A stretch of DNA of 64,000 nt from Streptomyces niveus (lineage in GTDB: Bacteria > Actinomycetota > Actinomycetes > Streptomycetales > Streptomycetaceae), in the NCBI RefSeq assembly GCF_002009175.1, contig NZ_CP018047.1, forward strand, positions 2,232,001 to 2,296,000, read 5' to 3'. This document shows positions 11,324 to 23,307 of the stretch, one piece after another; within the stretch, counting starts at the first letter, position 1; each line of letters opens with the position of its first letter. The notes under the pieces are model-generated. The model was given only the letters and a program-made list of their open reading frames with translations, was not told the DNA's origin and searched no databases. The translations under genes were made by a program, and so were the position numbers.

Positions 11324-11893
11324 ATGTCGGACGGAAGTCGGTTCCGGGCAAGCGGGTGGCGCGGGCGAGAGGTTGAGATACCGCGACCCGGCCCGGAGCA
11401 GGGGCCGGTCCCGTTGGAGTTCACCGGAGGGCTGACCACTTCGTTCGAGGTGGTCGCGGTGCGGCGGTCGACGACGCGCAAGGAGTACGGCGGGAAGCTG
11501 CTGCACGCGTATGGGCCCGGCGCACACAGAGTGCTGCTGCCCGGCGGTTACGACCGGGTGGAGGTGACCCGGGTGAAGCCGAGGCCGAGCTCGGGGACCG
11601 GCTTCTCCCGGTGGCGTCTGCGAACGGTGGAGGCCGCTGAACTGCCCGCGCTCGCGGACTCGGGCACCATGTCCGGCAGGAACGAGGACCTTGTGTACTT
11701 CGAGGGCCACGCACGCGTGTCGTACGCCTGGCTGGGCGCCACCGAACACGGTGAACTGCACTTCACGTCCGCCTCCGGAGGCACGGCCCGCAGACTCACG
11801 CGGCAGGGCGACATCCGGGGTGAGGTCACCGTCCCGGGCAGCGGTTTCCTCGCGATCTCCACCTGGGGCAAGTGGACGCTGGAGAGGCGGTAG
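11324..11893 (+). CDS. hypothetical protein, 189 residues
   Basis: The start ATG 11324 has an excellent RBS (GGAGGGGGAG). No family is recognised. The protein is soluble, beta-rich by appearance, with no signal or membrane segment. It alternates hydrophobic strands (TTSFEVVAVRR, KLLHAYGPGAHRVLLPGGYDRVEVTRV, DLVYFEGHARVSYAWLG) with basic loops and ends ISTWGKWTLERR. Codon usage matches its neighbours, so it is very likely real. It is convergent with the oligopeptide ABC operon, from which a strong bidirectional hairpin separates it. Confidence 0.7.
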   Translation: MSDGSRFRASGWRGREVEIPRPGPEQGPVPLEFTGGLTTSFEVVAVRRSTTRKEYGGKLLHAYGPGAHRVLLPGGYDRVEVTRVKPRPSSGTGFSRWRLRTVEAAELPALADSGTMSGRNEDLVYFEGHARVSYAWLGATEHGELHFTSASGGTARRLTRQGDIRGEVTVPGSGFLAISTWGKWTLERR

Positions 11894-11932
11894 CGGACAG
11901 GCTCGGCCCGCCCTTGCGTGAACACGGGCGCG

Positions 11933-11978
11933 GGCGACGGGGCGGCCGGGGCGGGCTCGCCCCGGCCGCCCCGTCGCC
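11933..11978. terminator. bidirectional hairpin terminator
   Basis: A 21-bp perfect GC inverted repeat (11933-11953 / 11958-11978) with a 4-nt loop sits between convergent genes ending at 11893 (+) and 12000 (-). Confidence 0.8.
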
Positions 11979-11999
11979 CTGTCGCCCTGTCGGCCCGGC

Positions 12000-13061
12000 T
12001 CAGACGGGTTCCGACACCGTCCCCGTCTCCGTCACCGCCGCGATCCCCGTCGCCCTCGTCCGCTCCACCGTCCCCGCCTCGATCTCCGCCGCGAAGTGGC
12101 ACGCCACCCGGTGGCCGTCGCCCAGAACCGTCAGCTCCGGGCGCTCCGTCGCGCACCGCGTCTCCTGCTTCCACGGGCAGCGCGTGTGGAAGCGGCAGCC
12201 GGCCGGCGGCGCCGCCGGGGAGGGGAGGTCGCCGCGGAGCAGGATCCGTTCGCGTTTGTCCTCCACCTCCGGGTCGGGCACCGGCACCGCCGACATCAGC
12301 GCCTTCGTGTACGGGTGCCTCGGCTCGGCGTACAGCGCGTCGCTCGGGGCCTCCTCGACCAGCGAGCCCAGATACATGACCCCGATGACGTCCGAGATGT
12401 GGCGGACCACGGCCAGGTCGTGGGCGATGACGAGATACGTCAGGCCCTTGGACTCCTGAAGCTCCTCAAGAAGGTTGATCACCTGCGCCTGGATGGAGAC
12501 GTCGAGCGCGGAGACCGGCTCGTCGCAGATGATCACGTCCGGTTCCAGGACGAGCGCCCGCGCGATGCCGATGCGCTGGCGCTGGCCGCCGGAGAACTCG
12601 TGCGGGTAGCGGGAGAGCGCGTTGGTCGGCAGGCCGACCTCGGCGAGGATCTTCTTGATCCGCTCTCGGCGCTCCTCCTGGTCGGCGCCGATGCCGTGCG
12701 CCGCCATGCCCTCGGAGAGGATCGACTCGATGTTCTGCCGGGGGTTGAGGCTGCCGAGCGGGTCCTGGAAGACCATCTGGAGGCGGTGCCGGATCTTGCG
12801 CATCTCCTCCTCGGGCAGCTTCGCCAGATCCGTGCCGTCGAAGACGACCTCGCCCTCGGTGATGTCGACGAGGCGCAGGACGGCGCGGCCGAGGGTGGTC
12901 TTGCCGCAGCCCGACTCCCCCACCAGGCCGTACGTCTGACCCGCCTCGACCTTCAGCGAGATACCGTCGACGGCGTACACATGACCGACGGTACGGTCGA
13001 AGAAGACGCCCCTCTTGACGGGGAAGTGGACCTTCACGCCGTCCAGTTCGAGCAGACTCAT
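12000..13061 (-). CDS. oligopeptide ABC transporter ATP-binding protein (DppF/OppF type)
   Basis: A 353-residue ATPase, last gene of the five-gene peptide importer. Walker A is GESGCGKTT (about 47-55), the Q-loop VFQDPLGSLNPR, the signature FSGGQRQR, Walker B VIICDEPVSALD and the H-loop IAHD. The C-terminus carries the oligopeptide-specific domain with a Cys-rich cluster (CRFHTRCPWKQETRC), which in Opp/Dpp ATPases can bind an Fe-S cluster. The start ATG 13061 overlaps the stop of the preceding ATPase gene by 4 bp, so translation is coupled. Confidence 0.93.
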   Translation of the reverse strand: MSLLELDGVKVHFPVKRGVFFDRTVGHVYAVDGISLKVEAGQTYGLVGESGCGKTTLGRAVLRLVDITEGEVVFDGTDLAKLPEEEMRKIRHRLQMVFQDPLGSLNPRQNIESILSEGMAAHGIGADQEERRERIKKILAEVGLPTNALSRYPHEFSGGQRQRIGIARALVLEPDVIICDEPVSALDVSIQAQVINLLEELQESKGLTYLVIAHDLAVVRHISDVIGVMYLGSLVEEAPSDALYAEPRHPYTKALMSAVPVPDPEVEDKRERILLRGDLPSPAAPPAGCRFHTRCPWKQETRCATERPELTVLGDGHRVACHFAAEIEAGTVERTRATGIAAVTETGTVSEPV

Positions 13062-14155
13062 GAGGAGACCTCCGCCGTGGGTTCGGCCGGACCGGCCGGC
13101 TCGGTCGGTTCGACCGCGTCAGCCGCGTCGGCCGCCTCGGCCCCGGGCACCGCGTCCGCGGAATCCGCCGGCAGGACCGGGTTGACGCAGCGCACCTGGT
13201 GGCCGGGCGCACGCGGTTCGGTGAGTTCCGGGGTGCCCGTCAGGCACTCCATCGTGTAGAAGTCGCACCGCGGCGCGAACGCGCAGCCGTCGGCCCACGC
13301 GATCTTGTCGTTGATCGAGCCGCGGATCGGCCTGAGCGGCTCGCCGCGCGGTGCGTCGAGGCGCGGGATGGAGCCGAGCAGGCCGTGCGCGTACGGATGG
13401 GTGGGGTGCGCGAACAGTTCGCGGCGGCCGGCCGTCTCCACCGCGCGCCCCGCGTAGAGCACGTTCACCTGGTCGCACAGCCCGGCGACGACACCCAGGT
13501 CATGAGTGATCATCAGGAGCGCCGTGCCCTCCTGGTCCACCAACTCCTTGAGGAGTTCGAGGATCTGGGCCTGGATGGTGACGTCGAGCGCCGTCGTCGG
13601 CTCGTCCGCGATCAGCAGGCGCGGCGCGCACGCGACCGCCATGGCGATGAGCGCGCGCTGCCGCATTCCGCCGGAGAGCTGGTGCGGGTACTCCTTGAGC
13701 CGCCTGTTCGGGTCGGGGATGCCGACGCGGTCGAGCAGCGTGGCGGCCTCCTTGCGGGCGGCCTCGCCCTTCAGTCCCCGGTGGCGGCTCAGGATCTCGG
13801 TGACCTGGATACCGATGGGGACGACCGGGTTGAGCGAGGAGAGCGGGTCCTGGAAGATCATCGCCATCCGGCTGCCGCGCAGGTCGCGGATCTTCTTCTC
13901 GTCCATGGACAGCAGGTCCGCGCCGTCGTACTCGGCGCGCCCGCCGACGCTCACCCCCTTGCGCGGGAGCAGACCCATCAGGGCGAGCGCGGTCACGGAC
14001 TTGCCGCAGCCCGACTCGCCCACCAGGCCGACGACCTGGCCCTCGGCGACGTCGAAGGAGACGCCGTCGACGGCCCTGGTGTCGCGCCCCGCGCCCCGGC
14101 CAGTCGCGTGCCCGGCAAAGGTGACCGACAGTGCGTCAACTGAGAGAAGTGACAT
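13058..14155 (-). CDS. oligopeptide ABC transporter ATP-binding protein (DppD/OppD type)
   Basis: A 365-residue ATPase that pairs with the product of the next gene to power peptide import. Walker A is GESGCGKSVT, the Q-loop IFQDPLSSLNP, the signature LSGGMRQR, Walker B LLIADEPTTALD and the H-loop ITHD. The C-terminal oligopeptide domain has CAFAPRCDFYTMEC. After about residue 320 there is an Ala/Glu/Pro-rich tail of about 40 residues that is not part of the family and probably disordered. It lies 6 bp after the permease stop. Confidence 0.93.
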   Translation of the reverse strand: MSLLSVDALSVTFAGHATGRGAGRDTRAVDGVSFDVAEGQVVGLVGESGCGKSVTALALMGLLPRKGVSVGGRAEYDGADLLSMDEKKIRDLRGSRMAMIFQDPLSSLNPVVPIGIQVTEILSRHRGLKGEAARKEAATLLDRVGIPDPNRRLKEYPHQLSGGMRQRALIAMAVACAPRLLIADEPTTALDVTIQAQILELLKELVDQEGTALLMITHDLGVVAGLCDQVNVLYAGRAVETAGRRELFAHPTHPYAHGLLGSIPRLDAPRGEPLRPIRGSINDKIAWADGCAFAPRCDFYTMECLTGTPELTEPRAPGHQVRCVNPVLPADSADAVPGAEAADAADAVEPTEPAGPAEPTAEVSS

Positions 14156-14161
14156 GGGACT

Positions 14162-15133
14162 TCAGCCTCGCAGCTTCGGATCGAGAGCTTCCCGCATCGC
14201 CTCACCGAGCAGCGTGAAGCCGAGGGCGGTGATGATGATCCCGACCGCCGGATAGACCGACATCATCGGCGCGTTGTCGAAGAAGCGCTGTGCCTGTGAC
14301 AGCATCACGCCCCACTCAGGGATCGCCGGATCCGGACTGCCGAGGCCCAGGTAGGACAGGGCGGCGGCCTCGATGATCGCGGTGGCGAGGCTGAGCGTCG
14401 CCTGGACGATCACCGGGCTGAGCGAGTTGGGCAGGATCTGTGTGAGGACGATACGGCGCTTGCGGATGCCGACCGCCTTGGCGGCCAGCACATAGTCCGA
14501 GTTGCCCTGCGCGAGCATCGAGCCACGCAGCAGCCGTGCGAACACCGGCACTTGGACCACGCCCACCGCGATCATCACCGTGGTCAGCGACTGGCCGAGC
14601 ACGGCGGCGACGGAGACCGCCAGCAGCAGCGAGGGCAGCGCCAGCATCATGTCGGTGACGCGCATGATGACGGTGTCCACGCGCTTGCCGGCCTCGCCGC
14701 CGAGCGTCGCCGCCGCGCCGGACACGGCGCCGACGATCGCACCGGCCACCAGACCGATGAGCATCGACACGACGCCGACGAGCAGCGTCTGGCGGGCACC
14801 GACGAGCATCCGGGAGAACTCGTCGCGGCCCAGGTGGTCCAGGCCGAACCAGTTCTCGCCGCGCGGTCCGACGAAGCGTCCCTGGTTGGGGAAGACCTCG
14901 CCGCGCCAGTCCTGCGCGGTGGGGCTGTACGGGGCGAGCCACGGGCCGACGATCGCGATCAGCACGAACAGGCCGATGACGACGCCGCCGATGATCGCGG
15001 TCTTGCTGGTGCGCAGCCGCCGGAAGGCCTCGCGCCACAGCCCGGCGCCCGAGGTGGCCTCGGTCCGCTCGGTGAGCTGCGCGAGCCGGTCGATCTTGTC
15101 GGCCTTCTTCGTCATGTTCGGGATGGCGTTCAC
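14162..15133 (-). CDS. oligopeptide ABC transporter permease (DppC/OppC type)
   Basis: A 323-residue inner-membrane permease with an N-terminal OppC_N segment (about 25-80, including TSKTAIIGGVVIGLFVLIAI) and a BPD_transp_1 domain of six helices. The EAA-loop-like segment is AAKAVGIRKRRIVLTQILPN, which docks on the ATPases. The C-terminus GLTLLGE/LREALDPKLRG is characteristic. The ATG at 15133 directly follows the stop of the other permease (gap of one base), so the two are coupled and form the heterodimeric channel. Confidence 0.93.
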   Translation of the reverse strand: MNAIPNMTKKADKIDRLAQLTERTEATSGAGLWREAFRRLRTSKTAIIGGVVIGLFVLIAIVGPWLAPYSPTAQDWRGEVFPNQGRFVGPRGENWFGLDHLGRDEFSRMLVGARQTLLVGVVSMLIGLVAGAIVGAVSGAAATLGGEAGKRVDTVIMRVTDMMLALPSLLLAVSVAAVLGQSLTTVMIAVGVVQVPVFARLLRGSMLAQGNSDYVLAAKAVGIRKRRIVLTQILPNSLSPVIVQATLSLATAIIEAAALSYLGLGSPDPAIPEWGVMLSQAQRFFDNAPMMSVYPAVGIIITALGFTLLGEAMREALDPKLRG

Positions 15134-15134
15134 G

Positions 15135-16139
15135 TCAGTGCACCCGCACTCTCGGGTCGATGAGGCTGTACGCCACGTCGACCAGCAGATTGATCAGGAC
15201 GTACACCAGCGCGATGAAGAGGATGAACCCGACGAGCACGGGGTAGTCGCGGGCGTCGATCGAGGTACGGATGAACTGCCCGATCCCGCCGAAGCTGAAG
15301 ACCGACTCGGTGAGGACGGCGCCGGACAGCAGGCTGCCGGTCAGCAGACCGACGGCGGTGATCACCGGCAGCAGCGCGTTGCGCAGGACGTGCCGGCCGC
15401 GTACGACACGCTTCTCCAGGCCCTTGGACTCGGCCGTACGTACGTAGTCCTCACCCAGCACTTCGAGCACGCTGGCCCGGGTCATCCGCACGATGACGGC
15501 GAGCGGGATGGAGGCGAGCGCGACGGCGGGCAGCACCAGATGCATGATCGCGTCCCAGGACGCGTCGAACTCGCCGGTCAGCAGACCGTCCAGGACGGCG
15601 AATCCGGTGATCTTCGTCGCGTCGATGCCGGTCGACAGCCGGCCGAAGCTCGGGAAGATCCCGAGGTTGACGGCGAAGAGCCCCTTGAGGAGCAGCGCCA
15701 GGAAGAAGACCGGGATACAGATGCCGAGCAGCGAGCCCGAGACCGCGGTCACGTCCAGCCAGCTGCCGCGGCGCCGCGCGGCGAAGTAGCCCAGCGGGAC
15801 GCCGATCACGACCGCGATGAGTATCGCGGCGACGCTGAGTTCGACGGTCGCCGGGAAGCGCAGGGTGAATTCCTCCCACACCGGCTGGCCGGTCTGTGTG
15901 GAGGTACCGAGGTCCAGTTCGAAGATCCGTTTGATGAACCGCCAGTACTGGACCCAGACCGGCTCGTCGAGCCCCAGCGCCCGGTTGATCCGGGCCACTT
16001 CGGCGTCGGTCGCCCGCTCGCCCAGGATCGCCGAAGCGGGTCCGCCGGGCAGCCGGTTCAGCCACAGGAAGAGCAGAACCGACAGACCGAGCAGGGTGGG
16101 TATCAGCTGTAGCAGTCGTCGTGCGACGAGTCGCAGCAC
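15135..16139 (-). CDS. oligopeptide ABC transporter permease (DppB/OppB type)
   Basis: A 334-residue inner-membrane permease. The first helix starts almost at once (MLRLVARRLLQLIPTLLGLS), followed by the OppB periplasmic region with PGGPA and six further helices. The coupling loop reads YVRTAESKGLEKRVVRGRHVLRNALLP, and the C-terminus ends LIDPRVRVH. It is separated from the substrate-binding gene by 160 bp holding a strong hairpin, which probably gives higher SBP than permease levels. Confidence 0.93.
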   Translation of the reverse strand: MLRLVARRLLQLIPTLLGLSVLLFLWLNRLPGGPASAILGERATDAEVARINRALGLDEPVWVQYWRFIKRIFELDLGTSTQTGQPVWEEFTLRFPATVELSVAAILIAVVIGVPLGYFAARRRGSWLDVTAVSGSLLGICIPVFFLALLLKGLFAVNLGIFPSFGRLSTGIDATKITGFAVLDGLLTGEFDASWDAIMHLVLPAVALASIPLAVIVRMTRASVLEVLGEDYVRTAESKGLEKRVVRGRHVLRNALLPVITAVGLLTGSLLSGAVLTESVFSFGGIGQFIRTSIDARDYPVLVGFILFIALVYVLINLLVDVAYSLIDPRVRVH

Positions 16140-16239
16140 CCCGCTTGCCCCTTTCTCATTGCGTACTCCTGGCGTCGTTCATCTGTGTTCGTCAGTCTGT
16201 TTCAGGTCGTCCGTGTGCGGGACGGGCCGTCAGCGAGAC

Positions 16240-16283
16240 GGGTCCGCCCGGTCGCGGGACGTGCTCCGCGACCGGGCGGACCC
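16240..16283 (-). terminator. intercistronic hairpin between SBP and permease genes
   Basis: A perfect 18-bp inverted repeat, 16240-16257 / 16266-16283, with an 8-nt loop, 17 nt after the SBP stop codon. It could be a partial terminator or an mRNA 3' stabiliser that enriches the SBP transcript over the permease/ATPase part of the operon. Confidence 0.7.
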
Positions 16284-16299
16284 GGCGTGCACGCTGTCC

Positions 16300-17970
16300 T
16301 TACTTGAAGGACACCTCGGCGAAGTACTCCTGCGTCAGCGGGGAGACCTTCGGCGGGTTGACGTTCGCGGCGAACGCGATCGCCGGCGGCGACGAGGAGA
16401 TCGGCACACCCGGCAGGTACGCCATGATCGTCTCGTTGGCCTTCTTGTACAGGTCGGTCCGCTTGGCCGGGTCGGTCTCGATCGACGCGGCCTTCAGCGC
16501 GGCGAAGACGCCCTTGTCCTTGAAGCCCCACTGCTTGTCGTACTCGGCGAACCAGGTGCCGATGAAGTTGTAGCCGTCGTTGAAGTCACCGGTCCAGCCG
16601 AGCATGTGCAGCGCGCAGCTGCCCGCCTCGGTGGCGTCCAGGTAGTCCGGGGCCCACTTCATGGGCTTCGGGGTGACGGTGATGCCGGCCTTCTCCAGGT
16701 CGGCCTTCATCAGCTCGAACATGTCCTGCGGAGCGGGCATGTACGGGCGGGTGACCTCGGTCGGGTAGCAGAACTCGACCTTCAGGGCGCTCTCACCGGC
16801 GTCCTTGAGCAGCGACTTCGCCTTGGCGGTGTCGAAGGGGTACGTCTTCACGGCGTCCGAGTAGCCGGCGACCGTGTCGGGCATGAACTGCGTGGCGGCG
16901 ACGCCGCCCTCGGGCAGCTGGGTCTTGACCAGGTTGTCGCGGTCGATGGCGTGCGCGATGGCCTGCCGGACCTCGGGCTTCTTCAGCGCCGGGTTCTTAC
17001 CCTGGCTCATGCCGACGTAGAAGATGTTGAAGACGTCACGCGTGGGAACCTGGAACTTGCCGTTCTCCAGCGTCTTCACATCGGCGGGCGCGACGAGGTC
17101 GTAGCCGTCGATGTCACCGGCCTGGAGGGCCTGACGGCGGCCGTCCTCGGTGTCGATGGTGCGGAAGACGAGATTCTTGATCTTCGCCTTGGTGCCCCAG
17201 TAGTCGTCGAAACGCTCCAGCGAGACTTCCTTGTTGCCCTTGTTCCACTCGCTGATCTTGTACGGGCCGGTGCCCGCGACCGTGCCGGCCACCTGGCTGT
17301 ACTTGGGGTACGTGATCGCGTCACCCTTGGCGGTGGCTTCCTGCTTCGCGTACTCCTTCAGGGCCTTCGGCGAGTGGATCGCCAGCGCCTGGAGGGAGAA
17401 GCCGCCCGGCAGGTTCGCGGAGGGCTCGTTGACCTCGATGACAGCGGTGCTGTCGTCCGTCGCGGTGCAGGACTTGTAGTTCGCCTTCGGCGTCTCCGGG
17501 TCCTCGTTCTTCGCGAAGCCGCCCATGATGGTCTGCCAGTAGTAGGAGACCGCGCTGGACTGGTACGTGCCCGTCCAGTTGAACCAGTAGTCGTAATTCG
17601 CGCAGACGGCGGCGGCGTTGAACTTCTCGCCGTCGTGGAAGGTCACGTCCTTGCGGAGGTTGAACGTCCAGACCGTACCGGCCTCGTTGCTCGACCACTT
17701 CTCGGCGAGGCCGGGGGCCAGTTCGCTGCCGCCCGACTCGTGCTCCAGCAGCGCCTCGAAGGCCTGACGGGTGACCCGGAAGGTCTCGCCGTCGCTCGCG
17801 AGCGCCGGGTCGAGCGAACCGGGGTCACCGGGGCCGCCGAAGACGAAGGTGTCCTTCGCGCCGCCCGAGTCACCTTCCTCGTCACGCTCGCTGGAGCAGC
17901 CGGTGGCGATCAGCGCGACGGCCAACGCCGTCACGATCGCCCCAGCGGCTCGGGACTTGATTATTCGCAT
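16300..17970 (-). CDS. oligopeptide-binding lipoprotein (SBP_bac_5), ABC transporter
   Basis: A 556-residue extracellular solute-binding lipoprotein that captures peptides for the permease downstream. The n-region MRIIKSR is followed by a hydrophobic core and lipobox IATGC with lipidated Cys25, then an acidic linker. The mature fold shows PGSLDPALASD, LAPGLAEKW, TWTFNLRKDVTFHDGEKF (the family signature), TGPYKISEWNKG and the C-terminal YLPGVPISSSP segment. It is first in the operon; its promoter must lie in 17971-18100. BldK-type oligopeptide importers in Streptomyces have the same layout and take up developmental peptide signals; whether this one does is unknown. Confidence 0.93.
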   Translation of the reverse strand: MRIIKSRAAGAIVTALAVALIATGCSSERDEEGDSGGAKDTFVFGGPGDPGSLDPALASDGETFRVTRQAFEALLEHESGGSELAPGLAEKWSSNEAGTVWTFNLRKDVTFHDGEKFNAAAVCANYDYWFNWTGTYQSSAVSYYWQTIMGGFAKNEDPETPKANYKSCTATDDSTAVIEVNEPSANLPGGFSLQALAIHSPKALKEYAKQEATAKGDAITYPKYSQVAGTVAGTGPYKISEWNKGNKEVSLERFDDYWGTKAKIKNLVFRTIDTEDGRRQALQAGDIDGYDLVAPADVKTLENGKFQVPTRDVFNIFYVGMSQGKNPALKKPEVRQAIAHAIDRDNLVKTQLPEGGVAATQFMPDTVAGYSDAVKTYPFDTAKAKSLLKDAGESALKVEFCYPTEVTRPYMPAPQDMFELMKADLEKAGITVTPKPMKWAPDYLDATEAGSCALHMLGWTGDFNDGYNFIGTWFAEYDKQWGFKDKGVFAALKAASIETDPAKRTDLYKKANETIMAYLPGVPISSSPPAIAFAANVNPPKVSPLTQEYFAEVSFK

Positions 17971-18268
17971 GCTCCACCCCAGGGGTCCGACGAGTCAGGG
18001 CTCGGTCTTGACGGCCGAACATTACAGCCAAGAAGGTGCTTACTGAACCGGCCGCAATGCGGAGTTGCAGACCTGAGATCCGGACAGTCGACAAATAGGC
18101 CGACTCAGTGACATTGCAGCGGAATCACTCAAATCGTGCCAGGTGAACCGCAGCCAGGTGGAGCAGAACAGGCGAAACGCCCGTACGACACGGAAGCCGC
18201 ATGTCCGCATGGTGGACCACGCGGGACGAGGGACGTGCCTGAACTGCGCTGCCGGGGCGCTTCCTTGG

Positions 18269-18316
18269 CGAGACCCTTCGGCACCTCGGAGGTCTCCGCG
18301 GTGCCGAAGGGTCTCG
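18269..18316 (-). terminator. hairpin terminator in the 17971-18497 gap
   Basis: A perfect 17-bp inverted repeat (18269-18285 / 18300-18316, loop 14) lies 180 bp downstream of the kinase-SBP gene's stop and upstream of the SBP lipoprotein gene. The rest of this 527-bp gap shows no convincing gene. Short frames there have neither RBS nor recognisable products, and the part next to 17970 should hold the importer promoter. The hairpin implies that the kinase and importer are separate transcripts. Confidence 0.65.
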
Positions 18317-18497
18317 GAGGCCCTCGGAGCCTTCAGCGACTTGCTGCCGACCTCCGGCGCATCCCCTTCCTTCACCACGTCACCCACCAGCGCGATCGCC
18401 ACGGGCGCTGTGGCGAACACCCTCATGTCGTCCGGAATCCGATCCGGCCGTTCTCCGGATGACGGCAGGCCCGCCTCGTGCCCCGGCTCCAGCTGGA

Positions 18498-21215
18498 TCA
18501 GGAGGTGGAGCCGATCAGCAGGTAGTCGTACATACCGGAATACGCCTGGGTCACGGTGACGTTGGTCGCCGAGTCCGGGCGGTACAGCAGGTTCCTGCGG
18601 TAGATCAGCGGCACGGCCGAGGCGTTCTCCAGGACGAGCTTGTCGACCTCGCCCCAAGCCTTGGCGCGGGCGGTGGCGTCGGTCTGCGCGATACCGTCCG
18701 AGAGCGCCTTGTTGATCTTCGGGTCGTCCAGCTCCATCAGGTTGGAGCTGGACGAGGGCCTGATGGCGGAGCCGTTGACGATCTGGTCGAGGAAGCCGAA
18801 ACCGGTCGGCCATTCGGCGCCCCACGCCATCATCATCATGCCGAGGTCGTGCTTCTTGACGTACGAGGGAACACCGGCGAAGTCACTGAAGTACTCGACC
18901 GACGGGTACTGCTTGATCTCGGTCTGGATGCCGACCTTCTTCAGGGAGGCCTGGATGGCGGCCGCCATCTGCACCTCATCGGGGCGGTCGGAGCGAGCCG
19001 TCAGGTTGGTCTTGAAGCCGTTCGGCTTGCCGCACCTGGTCAGCGCGTCCTTGGCCTTGGCGATGTCGCCCTTGTTGCCCTCGGTCCGGTACAGGTCGAA
19101 CTTCTGGTACCCGTTGACCGTCGGCGGGAGCAGCGTGCTCGCCACGTCGCCCTTGGTGTCGCCACCGAGCGCGGTCTGGACGGACGCCTTGTCGATCGCG
19201 TAGTGGACGGCCTTGCGGCAGTCCGCGTTGTCGAAGGGCTCCACCTTCGTCGACAGCGCGAGGTACGAGGTGGCGCCGGCGTACGGGTTGTCCGTCTTCG
19301 TCCTCTCACTCTCTTTGGTGACGACCTTCGGCCGGGTCGTCGCCTGAAGGCCGGTGCCGGCGGCGTCCACCGTGATGTTGTCGCTCATCAGGTGCTGGTC
19401 GACCGTGGTGGGGTCGACCTTGAACGTGATGGTGATCCTGTCGGCGAGCGCCGGGCGGATGGGGTCGGTGTCCTGGTCCCAGTGCGGGTTGCGCACGAGG
19501 GTCGCGCCGCGGCCCTCGCCGTACGACTGGAACTTGTACGGGCCCGACGACGAGATCTGCTTGACGTACTCGGCGCCCGTGTCCTTCGCCTGCGGCACGG
19601 GGGCCGTCTGCGAGGAGGTCGCCAGATAGTCGAAGTCGGCCAACGGCTTGTTGAGCTCGAAGACGATCGTCCGGTCGTCGGGGGTCCCGATGGACTCCAG
19701 ACCGCCGGGCGACTTGTCCTTGTACGGACCCTGGTACTTCTCGCCGCCCACCAGGTAGGCCTTGAAGTAGGTGGGTCCCTGCGAGAGGACCTCGGGCGCG
19801 AAGTTGCTGCGCTCGATGGCGTACTTGACGTCCTGGGACGTGACCGGGCTGCCGTCGTCGAACTTGACGCCCTTACGGAGCTTGTACGTCCAGGTCTTGG
19901 CGTCCGCGCTCGCCTTGCCCAGCGACTCGGCGAGGTCGGGGACGACCTCCAGCCCTTCCTTACCGGCGGCCGGCTTGAAGGTGGTGAGTGTGCGGCCGTA
20001 CAGCCGGGAGAAGTTCTGCACCCAGGCGTTGTAGGTGTTGCCCGGGTCGAGGGAGTCCGGCACTTTCGAGTGCTCGAAGGTGACAGTGCCCCCCACCTCG
20101 GCGGACTTGTTGACGATCGACGTCAGTCCGGCGTCGATACCGGCGTCGTCGCTCTTGTTGTCGTCGTTCGAGCCGTTGAGCCCGTACACGCCGTAGCCCG
20201 CGCCTGCGATCACGAGCAGGGCGCCGGCCGCACCGGCGGCCAGCAGCCGGGTGCGCTTCTTCCCCGGCGGAGTGGTCGTGGGTACCTGATCCCGGGGCGC
20301 CTGTTGCGGAGACAGAGGCCGGGGCTCGGCGCGCTCGGTGTCGACAACGGTCGCGTCAGGCTCGACGCCCCCCGCGCCCGGTGCGGCAGCCGCCCCGTCG
20401 GCCGGTACCGGCAGGTTCGGCGGGTACGGAGCGGTGTCCGGCGCCAAGAGGTCCAGCAGCTGCTCCGGCGTGGGCCTTTGTGAGGGTTCCTTGGCCAGAC
20501 AGTCGGCGACCACCGGCAGGAGGCCCTGGGGCAGGGCGGACAGGTCCGCGGGCTCGTGCACCGAGCGATACATCAGCCCCATCGGCGTGCCTTCACCGAA
20601 AGCACTGCCACCGGCCGCCGCGACCAGCACCGCGCCCAGCGCGAACACATCGGCCGCGCTGCCGACTTCCAAGCCCTGAGCCTGCTCGGGGGCCAGGAAA
20701 CCGGGCGTGCCGAAGGCCGCCCCGGTGGCAGTCAGCCGGGTCGACTCCACCGCCCGGGCGATGCCGAAGTCGAGGACGCGTGGGCCGTCATCGGCCATGA
20801 TGATGTTGCCCGGTTTGAGGTCACGGTGGATCAGGCCGCAGGCATGAATGGCCTGCAGTGCCTCTGCCAACGCAGCGCCGAGCGAGTGTAGTTGGGGCTC
20901 GTCCATCGGGCCTTGCCCGGCGAGCAGCCCCGACAGCGTCGGCCCCGCGATGTAGGCGGTCGCCAGCCAGGGCGCCTCGGCGTCGGGATCGGCGTCGACG
21001 ACCGGCGCCGTGTGGAACCCGCCGACCTTGCGGGCGGCCGCGACCTCGGCACGGAACCGCGCGCGGAAATGCGGATCGGCGGCCAGCTCGGGACGGGCCA
21101 CTTTCACGGCCACGGCGCGTCCGCCACGGGACCGCGCGAGATACACCGTCCCCATGCCGCCCGCGCCCAGCACCCGCTCCACGACGTACCCGCCGATGCG
21201 TCCTGGCAGGTCCAC
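18498..21215 (-). CDS. membrane Ser/Thr protein kinase fused to an oligopeptide-binding (SBP_bac_5) domain
   Basis: A 905-residue single-frame fusion. Residues 8-258 are a Hanks-type kinase: glycine loop LGAGGMGTVY (16-25), VAVK with Lys38, catalytic HRDLKPGN (130-137, Asp132), DFG at 149-151 and APE near 175-177. A Pro/Ala-rich juxtamembrane linker (260-320) leads to one membrane helix (about 324-345). Residues about 375-905 are a full extracellular peptide-binding fold: DSLDPGNTYNAW, TWTYKLRKGVKFDDGSPV (the SBP_bac_5 signature) and YAIERSNFAPEV. No lipobox is present; the kinase's helix is the anchor. GTG 21215 is preferred because GGGAGG lies 7 nt upstream; ATG 21230 would add five residues. 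The peptide importer operon follows 0.5 kb downstream, so the outer domain probably senses peptides and signals across the membrane. Confidence 0.92.
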   Translation of the reverse strand: MDLPGRIGGYVVERVLGAGGMGTVYLARSRGGRAVAVKVARPELAADPHFRARFRAEVAAARKVGGFHTAPVVDADPDAEAPWLATAYIAGPTLSGLLAGQGPMDEPQLHSLGAALAEALQAIHACGLIHRDLKPGNIIMADDGPRVLDFGIARAVESTRLTATGAAFGTPGFLAPEQAQGLEVGSAADVFALGAVLVAAAGGSAFGEGTPMGLMYRSVHEPADLSALPQGLLPVVADCLAKEPSQRPTPEQLLDLLAPDTAPYPPNLPVPADGAAAAPGAGGVEPDATVVDTERAEPRPLSPQQAPRDQVPTTTPPGKKRTRLLAAGAAGALLVIAGAGYGVYGLNGSNDDNKSDDAGIDAGLTSIVNKSAEVGGTVTFEHSKVPDSLDPGNTYNAWVQNFSRLYGRTLTTFKPAAGKEGLEVVPDLAESLGKASADAKTWTYKLRKGVKFDDGSPVTSQDVKYAIERSNFAPEVLSQGPTYFKAYLVGGEKYQGPYKDKSPGGLESIGTPDDRTIVFELNKPLADFDYLATSSQTAPVPQAKDTGAEYVKQISSSGPYKFQSYGEGRGATLVRNPHWDQDTDPIRPALADRITITFKVDPTTVDQHLMSDNITVDAAGTGLQATTRPKVVTKESERTKTDNPYAGATSYLALSTKVEPFDNADCRKAVHYAIDKASVQTALGGDTKGDVASTLLPPTVNGYQKFDLYRTEGNKGDIAKAKDALTRCGKPNGFKTNLTARSDRPDEVQMAAAIQASLKKVGIQTEIKQYPSVEYFSDFAGVPSYVKKHDLGMMMMAWGAEWPTGFGFLDQIVNGSAIRPSSSSNLMELDDPKINKALSDGIAQTDATARAKAWGEVDKLVLENASAVPLIYRRNLLYRPDSATNVTVTQAYSGMYDYLLIGSTS

Positions 21216-21405
21216 GCCACCACCTCCCATGCGCCGCACGCCCCCCCCCGTTGTCGAGATGCCGCGCGCCAGTATGACTGACACTCCCGCCACTCCCCGT
21301 GCCAGGGCGCCGGCCGCGCGAGGTCGAGCGGACGCGCTCACCGCCTCGCGGAATCGTCTGTGACAGACGCCTCTGTGGCCGGGTCGGGTCAGTGCGCGGA
21401 ACGGT

Positions 21406-21423
21406 GCCGGCCTTTCGGCCGGC
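21406..21423. terminator. short GC hairpin in the 21216-21630 gap
   Basis: GCCGGCC - TTTC - GGCCGGC (21406-21423), followed on the plus strand by CCTTTT. It lies 208 bp past the stop of the minus-strand SseB-like gene, upstream of the kinase-SBP gene, and may end the SseB transcript. Confidence 0.45.
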
Positions 21424-21477
21424 CCTTTTCCCCGACCCGCCCGCCGCACCCGCCGTCCTGCCCGGTGGTCAGCCGCC

Positions 21478-21505
21478 GATAACGGATCAGACACCCACCG
21501 TTATC
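21478..21505. promoter_or_regulatory. inverted-repeat operator candidate upstream of the kinase-SBP gene
   Basis: GATAACGG (21478-21485) and CCGTTATC (21498-21505) form an 8-bp inverted repeat with a 12-bp spacer. It lies about 265 bp before the kinase-SBP start, in a gap of 415 bp that otherwise holds only the hairpin at 21406 and no gene. The binding protein is unknown. Confidence 0.4.
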
Positions 21506-21630: not shown

Positions 21631-22455
21631 TCAGTAGGCGCGCGGCGCGGCGGGCGGATAGCCGTAACCGGAAGCGGCCTGCGGCGCCCCGTGGGCCTCC
21701 CGGTCGTAGAACGGCCGCGAGTTGGCCCGCAGCCACATCGTGACCGGGTCGTACTCGTCGGACATCGCGACGGTGGACACCGGCAGCCCTTCGGGCACCG
21801 CGCCGATGGACTGCTGCATCATCGCGCGTACGGCGTCGACGGACGCCGGGCTCGTGTCGTACAGATCCAGACCGATGGTGAGATACGGCGCGCCGAGCGC
21901 GGGGTGGACCCACGCGCGGCGCAACGACCGTACGGCGGGGGTGCGGTGGGCGTTCTGCGTGAGCAGCGCGTAGAACTGCGGGATCTCCACGGCCGGTTCG
22001 GACAGCCGCAGCGGTCCGGCCGGCATCCGGTCGAGACCCGTCGCGATCCGGCGCAGATCGAGCCACGGGATGCCGACGCCGCCGCCCGGCGCGTGCGGGT
22101 TGAGCCAGATTCCCCAGCGCTCGGGGTAGAGGGCGCGGGCGATGTCGCGGCCGGTGACGACCTCGTGCGCGCGGTTCCAGCCACTGACGGAGAGCTCCTG
22201 GGCGGAGGTGACACAGGGCGCGTAGCCGAGGCCGTCGACCTCCATGTTCCCGTACTGCGCGTCGGGCGAGCCCGCGCGGCCGTGCCAGAGCAGCATCCAC
22301 ACCTGGCCGGCGGTGCTGTCGGCGAGCGCCTGGAGCAGCGCCTCGTAGGCGTCGTAGCGTCCTGGCGTCACCTGGCGCAGCATGTGCTCGACCTGCCCCG
22401 TCGCCGCGGTGCCTGACGCGCTCACTCTTGGTCCCGCCCCTCGTCGATCCACCAT
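21631..22455 (-). CDS. SseB-like (enhanced serine sensitivity) family protein
   Basis: A 274-residue soluble protein with two SseB-type modules. The N-terminal part (about 40-130) has QVWMLLWHGRAG and YAPCVTSAQELSVSGWNR. The C-terminal part has GPLRLSEPAVEIPQFYALL and YLTIGLDLYD, then a tail WLRANSRPFYDREAHG and a Tyr/Pro/Ala-rich end. It resembles the adjacent gene product, which ends with the same LERVRPFYQR-type motif, so the pair arose by duplication. ATG 22455 has GGGAGG 9 nt upstream. SseB overproduction in E. coli alters serine sensitivity; the molecular role is unknown. The position next to glycine/serine genes is suggestive. Confidence 0.75.
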   Translation of the reverse strand: MVDRRGAGPRVSASGTAATGQVEHMLRQVTPGRYDAYEALLQALADSTAGQVWMLLWHGRAGSPDAQYGNMEVDGLGYAPCVTSAQELSVSGWNRAHEVVTGRDIARALYPERWGIWLNPHAPGGGVGIPWLDLRRIATGLDRMPAGPLRLSEPAVEIPQFYALLTQNAHRTPAVRSLRRAWVHPALGAPYLTIGLDLYDTSPASVDAVRAMMQQSIGAVPEGLPVSTVAMSDEYDPVTMWLRANSRPFYDREAHGAPQAASGYGYPPAAPRAY

Positions 22456-22557: not shown

Positions 22558-23307
22558 TTACACGGGCGGCGCGGCCGTCCTTTGGTAGAAGGGCCGCACC
22601 CGCTCCAGCATCCAGGTGCCGACGGGGTCCTGGGTGGCGTCCAGCAGCACGAGATTGACCGGCCAGCCGACCTGCATCCGGCCGAGCGCCCTGCCGAGCG
22701 CGTCCATGGGCGCGTTGCGCTCGGCGGCCTCCCAGGAGGAGAGCTGGACGCCGACGAAGAGAACGGGGGGCTCGCCCTCGATGCTCGCGAGGCCGCGGCG
22801 CGCGCTGAGGACGACGCCGGACGCCTCGAACTCCTCGGCCGCCGCCGTCAGGAAGTCGACGGGGTCCTCCTGCCAGTCGGGCTCGAAGAGCCGCACCCGG
22901 CCTCCGCTGGCGGGGCCGTCCAGCGGCGTTCGGCCCACCCGGCACAGCTCCGCGACGGCGAGCGGCGGCAGCGGCGCCCCGACCGTGCCGCCGGGGTTCA
23001 CGGCTATTCCGAGCCGAGGAGGCAGGCCGCGGGCGAACTCACGGGCCGGGGCGACGGTGAAGGGCATATGGGCCCCGACGCACTGGAGGAACTGCTGCTC
23101 GGAGCTGAAGACGGGGACGTACGGCACGCCCTCGATCTCCATGGTCGGCAGATCGAGTCCGGGGCTGTCGGGTCCGCCGCCGTTGGGCAGCGGCACCCAG
23201 AGCTGACTCCGGCCGAGTACCTCGACCAGCCGCCCGCCCGCCGAGGCGTTCCCGAGCGAGGCGGCGAGCACCTCTTCCAGCTCGTTGCCCGGCCATGCTG
23301 TGTTCAC
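22558..23307 (-). CDS. SseB family protein
   Basis: A 249-residue soluble protein. The N-terminal SseB domain includes SQLWVPLPNGGG, the EGVPYVPVFSSEQQFLQCVG segment (the family hallmark, a strand, turn and helix before the fold core), FARGLPPRLGIAVNPGG and, after about 130, a C-terminal SseB_C domain (VRLFEPDWQEDPVDFL, PPVLFVGVQLSS, VNLVLLD). It starts ATG 23307. It is upstream of the paralogue at 21631 in the same direction, with a 102-bp gap, so the two are probably one operon. No enzymatic motif is visible. Confidence 0.85.
   Translation of the reverse strand: MNTAWPGNELEEVLAASLGNASAGGRLVEVLGRSQLWVPLPNGGGPDSPGLDLPTMEIEGVPYVPVFSSEQQFLQCVGAHMPFTVAPAREFARGLPPRLGIAVNPGGTVGAPLPPLAVAELCRVGRTPLDGPASGGRVRLFEPDWQEDPVDFLTAAAEEFEASGVVLSARRGLASIEGEPPVLFVGVQLSSWEAAERNAPMDALGRALGRMQVGWPVNLVLLDATQDPVGTWMLERVRPFYQRTAAPPV

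Follow-up and report, generated by a model that had tools for sequence, protein, structure and literature searches.

How did a Streptomyces genome come to encode a Ser/Thr kinase and an oligopeptide-binding protein in one gene, beside a peptide importer, and could the product act as a receptor? The locus lies in a 64,000-nucleotide stretch of Streptomyces niveus contig NZ_CP018047.1, hereafter the window. An earlier note, made from this DNA alone, had read one uninterrupted frame as kinase, membrane helix and full SBP_bac_5 domain (SBP, substrate-binding protein), and the open frame and the Pfam matches bear that reading out. By its sequence, the gene is a true fusion of an intact Ser/Thr kinase, a probable helix and a complete SBP_bac_5 domain. 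The stop-free frame spans positions 18498-21494 on the minus strand. Of the extent given in the note, 18498..21215, the frame stands but the start probably does not: 21215 is a downstream in-frame GTG, and the ATG at 21230 is most likely the start codon, since the donor-type kinases at loci L065 and L066 have their initial Met at the same place in the alignment (Table 1). Residues are numbered here from a GTG at 21239, which gives 913 aa.

Pfam matches cover residues 18-262 (Pkinase, E 1.3e-32) and 431-824 (SBP_bac_5, E 2.4e-70), the latter taking in positions 1-364 of the 368 in profile PF00496. The kinase motifs named in the earlier note, VAVK, HRDLKPGN and DFG, are found at residues 43 (as VAVKV), 138 and 157, and are accompanied by GAGGMG at 25 and APEQ at 183; with a Pkinase match and the catalytic Lys, HRD, DFG and APE motifs, the kinase is of the Hanks type. 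Against NCBIfam it stays below the cut-offs of both the AfsK model (270.7 of 1300) and the PASTA-kinase model (180.6 of 450), and no PASTA repeats occur among the Pfam matches of the protein. In the helix region hydropathy peaks at residues 332-333 (1.77), and it is equally high (1.81) at residues 190-196 inside the kinase domain, so the helix at about 329-352 is placed by its position and by homology with the donor kinases. Among solved structures, the SBP part is closest to S. clavuligerus OppA2 (2WOK, E 7.4e-123), with homology along its whole length. In a structure comparison of the kind that the note had proposed, 2wop and 2wok rank first in Foldseek, at 37-38% identity, but the AlphaFold2 ectodomain model behind it is poor (pLDDT 61.8) and served fold recognition only.

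Table 1. Coordinates of the fusion gene, its parts and its neighbours in the window
Feature	Position	Strand	Basis or remark
ATPase F, neighbouring importer	12000..13061	minus	
ATPase D, neighbouring importer	13058..14155	minus	
Permease C, neighbouring importer	14162..15133	minus	
Permease B, neighbouring importer	15135..16139	minus	
SBP of neighbouring, separate importer	16300..17970	minus	SBP_bac_5
3'-end remnant of F' (lost ATPase gene), about 258 bp	18243..18501	minus	homology to L032 15057-15315
Scar of 3.2 kb deletion (B', D', most of F' removed)	18492..18501	.	short shared word ATCCAGC
Kinase-SBP fusion gene	18498..21230	minus	open frame and Pfam; 910 aa from ATG 21230
SBP ectodomain (predicted)	18501..20167	minus	taken from the ancestral lipoprotein, directly behind its lipobox Cys
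Codon 809, Glu for family-wide Asp	18813..18815	minus	E. coli OppA D445 (mature 419), DppA D436, by alignment
Fusion point, overlap of kinase-like and SBP-like halves	20162..20167	minus	blastn against L065 and L031
Probable membrane helix, from kinase partner	20184..20255	minus	residues 329-352; homology with L065, hydropathy
Hanks-type Ser/Thr kinase domain	20454..21188	minus	residues 18-262, with its catalytic motifs
SseB_C-domain gene, syntenic anchor of the locus	21631..22455	minus	
SseB-like gene, syntenic anchor	22558..23307	minus	

The two halves derive from different parents. Positions 11-1078 of the gene match the kinase gene at L065 (85.8% nucleotide identity by blastn), and positions 1073-2740 match the SBP gene at L031 (91.2%; 90-92% to SBPs of the S. 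niveus clade). The word at the join, CGGCTCGGAC, is common to both parents, with one base changed in the window. The nearest kinases (L065, L066 and L137) occupy frames 532-575 aa long, which also encode a helix and a small C-terminal part, and related accessory kinases differ in their C-terminal parts. No close kinase was found in the genomes of L031-L033, where those listed are at most 56% identical; a search of plasmid records returned, on four Streptomyces plasmids, kinases with 78-86% identity across the kinase domain. Two kinases near that of the fusion, L156:2992-4488 and L157:3010-4200, are carried on linear plasmids of Streptomyces, with transposase genes of the IS5 type and IS701 next to them, and one of the two kinases is annotated as a RodZ domain-containing protein.

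Six peptide patterns, scanned against genome contigs, hit 65 loci, 35 matching the SBP half and 30 the kinase half, and in none of the 65 are both halves in one gene. The SBP is standalone in all 35 of its loci, in the importer order C'-SBP-B'-D'-F' (in L046 the contig end cuts F'), with glyA and gcvT on the far side in 32 of the 35, as in the window. In L031-L033, from S. niveus, Streptomyces sp. NP-1717 and S. camponoticapitis, this importer is followed by the A-B-C-D-F importer that adjoins the fusion in the window, and the SBPs of the first importer start with a signal peptide and a lipobox-type Cys. The window lacks the lipobox, C', B', D' and most of F', which leaves the fused SBP with neither the cognate partners nor the anchor of an ABC importer component. 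What remains of F' lies between the fusion gene and the neighbouring importer. Both the SBP stop region and the F' tail contain ATCCAGC in L031 and L033. A whole-genome DNA search for B'D'F' elsewhere found no long match above 76% nucleotide identity among the 40 candidates scored out of 486.

These comparisons point to an accessory kinase that arrived in the locus of an oligopeptide importer, after which two deletions, both at short shared words, would have produced the gene as it now stands. One would have taken the kinase's small ectodomain, permease C' and the SBP lipoprotein signal, placing kinase and helix in frame with the mature SBP, and the other would have taken B', D' and most of F'. 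Read in this way, the locus is the recent birth of a fusion with both deletion scars still readable.

Among the sets searched, the window's fusion was found in the source genome alone. It was absent from 295 other genomes of the class (three candidates scored per genome), from 60 other relatives (10 of which are also in the class set) and from the six genomes reached via the loci, and no match covering 80% of the query occurred among 72,556 plasmid records. This narrow distribution weakens the comparative case for maintenance of the fusion, a point against the receptor reading. Three other SBP genes of the source genome lie in long frames, in which no kinase part was found. A further SBP_bac_5 protein of the same genome (L132:2009-4831; G000:C1:2657973-2659781) has its domain match in three pieces and contains long low-complexity stretches.

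Fusions of the same general design do occur elsewhere. From the class-wide search, three candidates whose match ran into the kinase end, in genomes G056, G111 and G198, were picked, and all three proved to be fusions. In total, two further types comprising eight proteins have a kinase, a linker and an SBP_bac_5 domain in one frame; five of the eight show both domains by Pfam, and the other three by BLAST together with a profile of standalone SBPs. The first type includes G348 (S. camponoticapitis) and G073, which are 77% identical, and the Streptomyces plasmid proteins WP_329468636.1 and WP_168720682.1 (NBC_01431 and SAT1); the G348 protein, searched against 148 class genomes, was present in one. 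The second includes G056, G111 and two proteins near each other in G198. Unlike the window's fusion, they are not at this locus and belong to different kinase and SBP lineages: G348 is 34% identical to the window's protein over 10-879, and the SBP parts of the G111 type are 37-38% identical. Between G348 and G073, dN/dS is 0.253 for the kinase and 0.240 for the SBP, so both parts are under purifying selection, a point in favour of the receptor reading that comes from another, older type; for the pair G198 and G111 the two ratios are 0.164 and 0.451. The two plasmid proteins (L154:8007-10664 and L155:7992-10802) carry no annotation beyond ABC transporter substrate-binding protein, with the kinase half unnamed, so the class may be overlooked. 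Related kinases neighbour one another in G198 and G111 (L148:6742-9732, 11500-13602 and 13683-16922; L149:6896-14054), some with an SBP_bac_5 ectodomain and others without an SBP match, which looks like local ectodomain swapping. Within the 2-13 kb of flank fetched, Dpp-type permeases or importer genes stand beside none of the eight (0/8). The G348 flank has one distantly similar ABC ATPase, and the NBC_01431 locus has an annotated AzlC-family permease.

The fused SBP has evolved in a manner quite different from that of its standalone relatives. Compared with L031-L033 it shows 80-85 nonsynonymous and 41-58 synonymous differences, against 16-32 and 32-46 among those three. The fusion branch carries 66-75 nonsynonymous and 28-32 synonymous changes, for a dN/dS of about 0.66-0.84, whereas the ratio is 0.15-0.26 among the three nearest standalone SBPs, 0.02-0.27 in four neighbouring genes and 0.184 for the kinase against L065, a comparison that includes time before the fusion. 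The branch value is close to neutral and counts against the receptor reading, as does the nonsynonymous share of the changed codons (45/67, with 78% expected if neutral). The fused SBP departs from its family at 12 of 192 invariant columns, more than any other of the 46 entries aligned, two of which are repeats, and L055 is next with eight; the kinase breaks 1 of 133 columns that do not vary among 31 homologues with 70% identity or more. Given the high branch ratio and this excess of broken columns, with the kinase at 1/133, the fused SBP is relaxed or redirected. Invariant columns are only slightly spared by its changes (12/194, with 23/214 and 15/116 at variable ones), again a point against a receptor. 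No stop or indel was found over its 1584 nt. Only 5 of 52 changes fall at hydrophobic residues, with 22-30% expected under neutrality (binomial P 0.04 at 20% and 0.0004 at 30%), but the share is similar in standalone relatives (4/27 and 13/75), which lessens its value for the receptor reading. Positive selection was not detected, the nine multi-hit codons being near chance level (6-7 by our own estimate). Gene conversion within the family was considered as the source of the fast change and rejected, as only 21 of 50 changes yield a residue that also occurs at another place in the alignment.

The changes also reach the ligand pocket. A passage of PMC5736914 describes the Asp equivalent to codon 809 as binding the peptide amino group in OppA. 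All 89 standalone entries, which comprise 83 distinct sequences, have Asp at this anchor; the set includes E. coli OppA, DppA and the neighbouring SBP, was gathered mostly by likeness to the fused SBP and leaves out matches that contain a stop or are shorter than 400 residues. The fused SBP, with Glu at 809, departs from the peptide-SBP pattern; an acid is retained, so ligand binding would still be possible. Its broken invariant columns number 5 of 17 near the pocket and 7 of 175 elsewhere (Fisher p 0.0016, in a test designed post hoc), and 3 of 14 when only the exact OppA contacts are taken (p 0.15, not significant). These contacts come from a docking study (PMC6305025), and the fused SBP was aligned to OppA by sequence only. 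Near-pocket breaks make up 0/8, 2/5 and 1/4 of those in the standalone SBPs of L055, L056 and L034. The anchor Asp is absent from seven of the nine fusion proteins, this one included, and is kept in G056 and in one of the two in G198. Among 12 other SBP_bac_5 paralogues in the genome, nine can be aligned at the anchor and only four have Asp, so its loss in G348-type fusions may predate fusion. Since pocket positions have changed, the peptide-amino anchor among them, the ligand of the old importer cannot be assumed for the fusion.

Proximity suggests other explanations. The earlier note was right that a complete oligopeptide importer with its own SBP lies next door: the operon at 12000-17970 has an SBP, two permeases and two ATPases. 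As the fusion's partner, as the note had proposed, this importer finds no support, because the fused SBP comes from another importer, which is complete at this place in three relatives. The adjacent importer was likewise ruled out as the fused SBP's own, the two being separate systems side by side in L031-L033. A promoter and terminator scan of 17900-18560 found nothing. Sensing of the neighbouring importer's cargo by the kinase, or competition for it, is improbable; the fusion and the importer's SBP do sit side by side, 527 bp apart, and are both SBP_bac_5 proteins, but they are of different lineages, their adjacency predates the fusion as that of two separate importers, and the importer's SBP retains the anchor Asp, in contrast to the altered pocket of the fusion. 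Linkage of homologues with peptide importers, a test on which the note had beforehand staked this idea, is missing from the flanks fetched for all eight other fusions. Slightly less probable still is a tethered SBP that hands peptides to the neighbouring permease, with the kinase regulating uptake. The loss of the SBP's own permeases next to a related importer would suit such an arrangement, but that importer already has an SBP, and no such pairing is seen in other fusions. An assembly or sequencing artefact joining two genes, which the occurrence in one genome might bring to mind, is very improbable, because the source genome is a single 7.99 Mb contig and both halves carry substitutions of their own, neither being a copy of any relative seen; moreover, the join is in frame at a short shared word and a second scar lies downstream.

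The main rival is that the ectodomain is a passenger: only the kinase matters, the deletion was tolerated, and the SBP senses nothing as it drifts. The near-neutral branch ratio, set against those of standalone SBPs and of the kinase, the record number of broken invariant columns and the different C-terminal parts on related accessory kinases all agree with this explanation, which we regard as a real but less probable alternative. It accounts poorly for the few changes at hydrophobic residues and the lack of a stop or indel, for the clustering of broken invariant residues near the pocket rather than at random, and for another kinase-SBP type that is conserved with its SBP under purifying selection. 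We favour, with a probability of about 0.5, the reading that the fusion is a young single-pass receptor Ser/Thr kinase, with the kinase inside, a helix, and outside an SBP whose pocket has been retuned. Its anatomy and its parentage support the suggestion of the earlier note that the receptor part was borrowed from a peptide importer. The receptor reading builds on the fusion itself, its two parent lineages, both scars, the loss of the importer, a kinase with its motifs and conserved residues, an SBP free of stops and indels, and breaks biased to the pocket; it presumes the order of events, the topology in vivo, expression, ligand binding and kinase activation. The SBP would have lost transport and become an ectodomain. 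With the scaffold kept and the pocket being rewritten, closure of the SBP on a ligand would alter kinase pairing and trans-autophosphorylation, and the pocket changes suggest that this ligand differs from that of the ancestral importer.

NCBI product names exist for kinases fused to substrate-binding proteins, and single cases may be annotated. In those parts of the open-licence literature that our searches for fusions, kinases and the locus covered, no description of a kinase-SBP_bac_5 fusion was found. Kinases with extracellular sensors are known, as are SBPs; the unusual part is a birth with readable scars. The locus is a recent example of a transporter part turned candidate receptor, for which the importer intact in sister species is a direct control. 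More tentatively, ABC importers may repeatedly have given rise to receptor kinases in Actinobacteria, with SBPs captured, transport lost and the pocket rewritten, the window representing the birth and the conserved, mislabelled members the end state. The abstract of PMC6069109 calls the stimuli that activate bacterial Ser/Thr kinases an outstanding question; here binding screens could address it, as the ligand pocket of the ectodomain is of a well-studied kind.

Three known systems are instructive by comparison. The fusion is homologous along its whole SBP part to standalone OppA2-like SBPs such as S. clavuligerus 2WOK/2WOP, from which it differs in having a kinase and helix in place of the signal peptide and lipobox, and Glu in place of the anchor Asp. 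With the PASTA receptor kinases (PknB/PrkC) it shares a Hanks-type kinase and an extracellular ligand-binding part, the latter predicted in the fusion, but its ectodomain is an SBP with no PASTA match. Ligand-induced dimerisation is described for PASTA kinases in a passage of PMC6213207, and it is by analogy with these that ligand-dependent pairing is suggested for the fusion. In the mycobacterial GlnH-GlnX-PknG system, an SBP is proposed to report nutrients to a Ser/Thr kinase (PMC6069109). There the parts are three separate proteins, with a lipoprotein that binds Asp, Glu and Asn, whereas here a kinase and an SBP_bac_5 domain are joined in one polypeptide.
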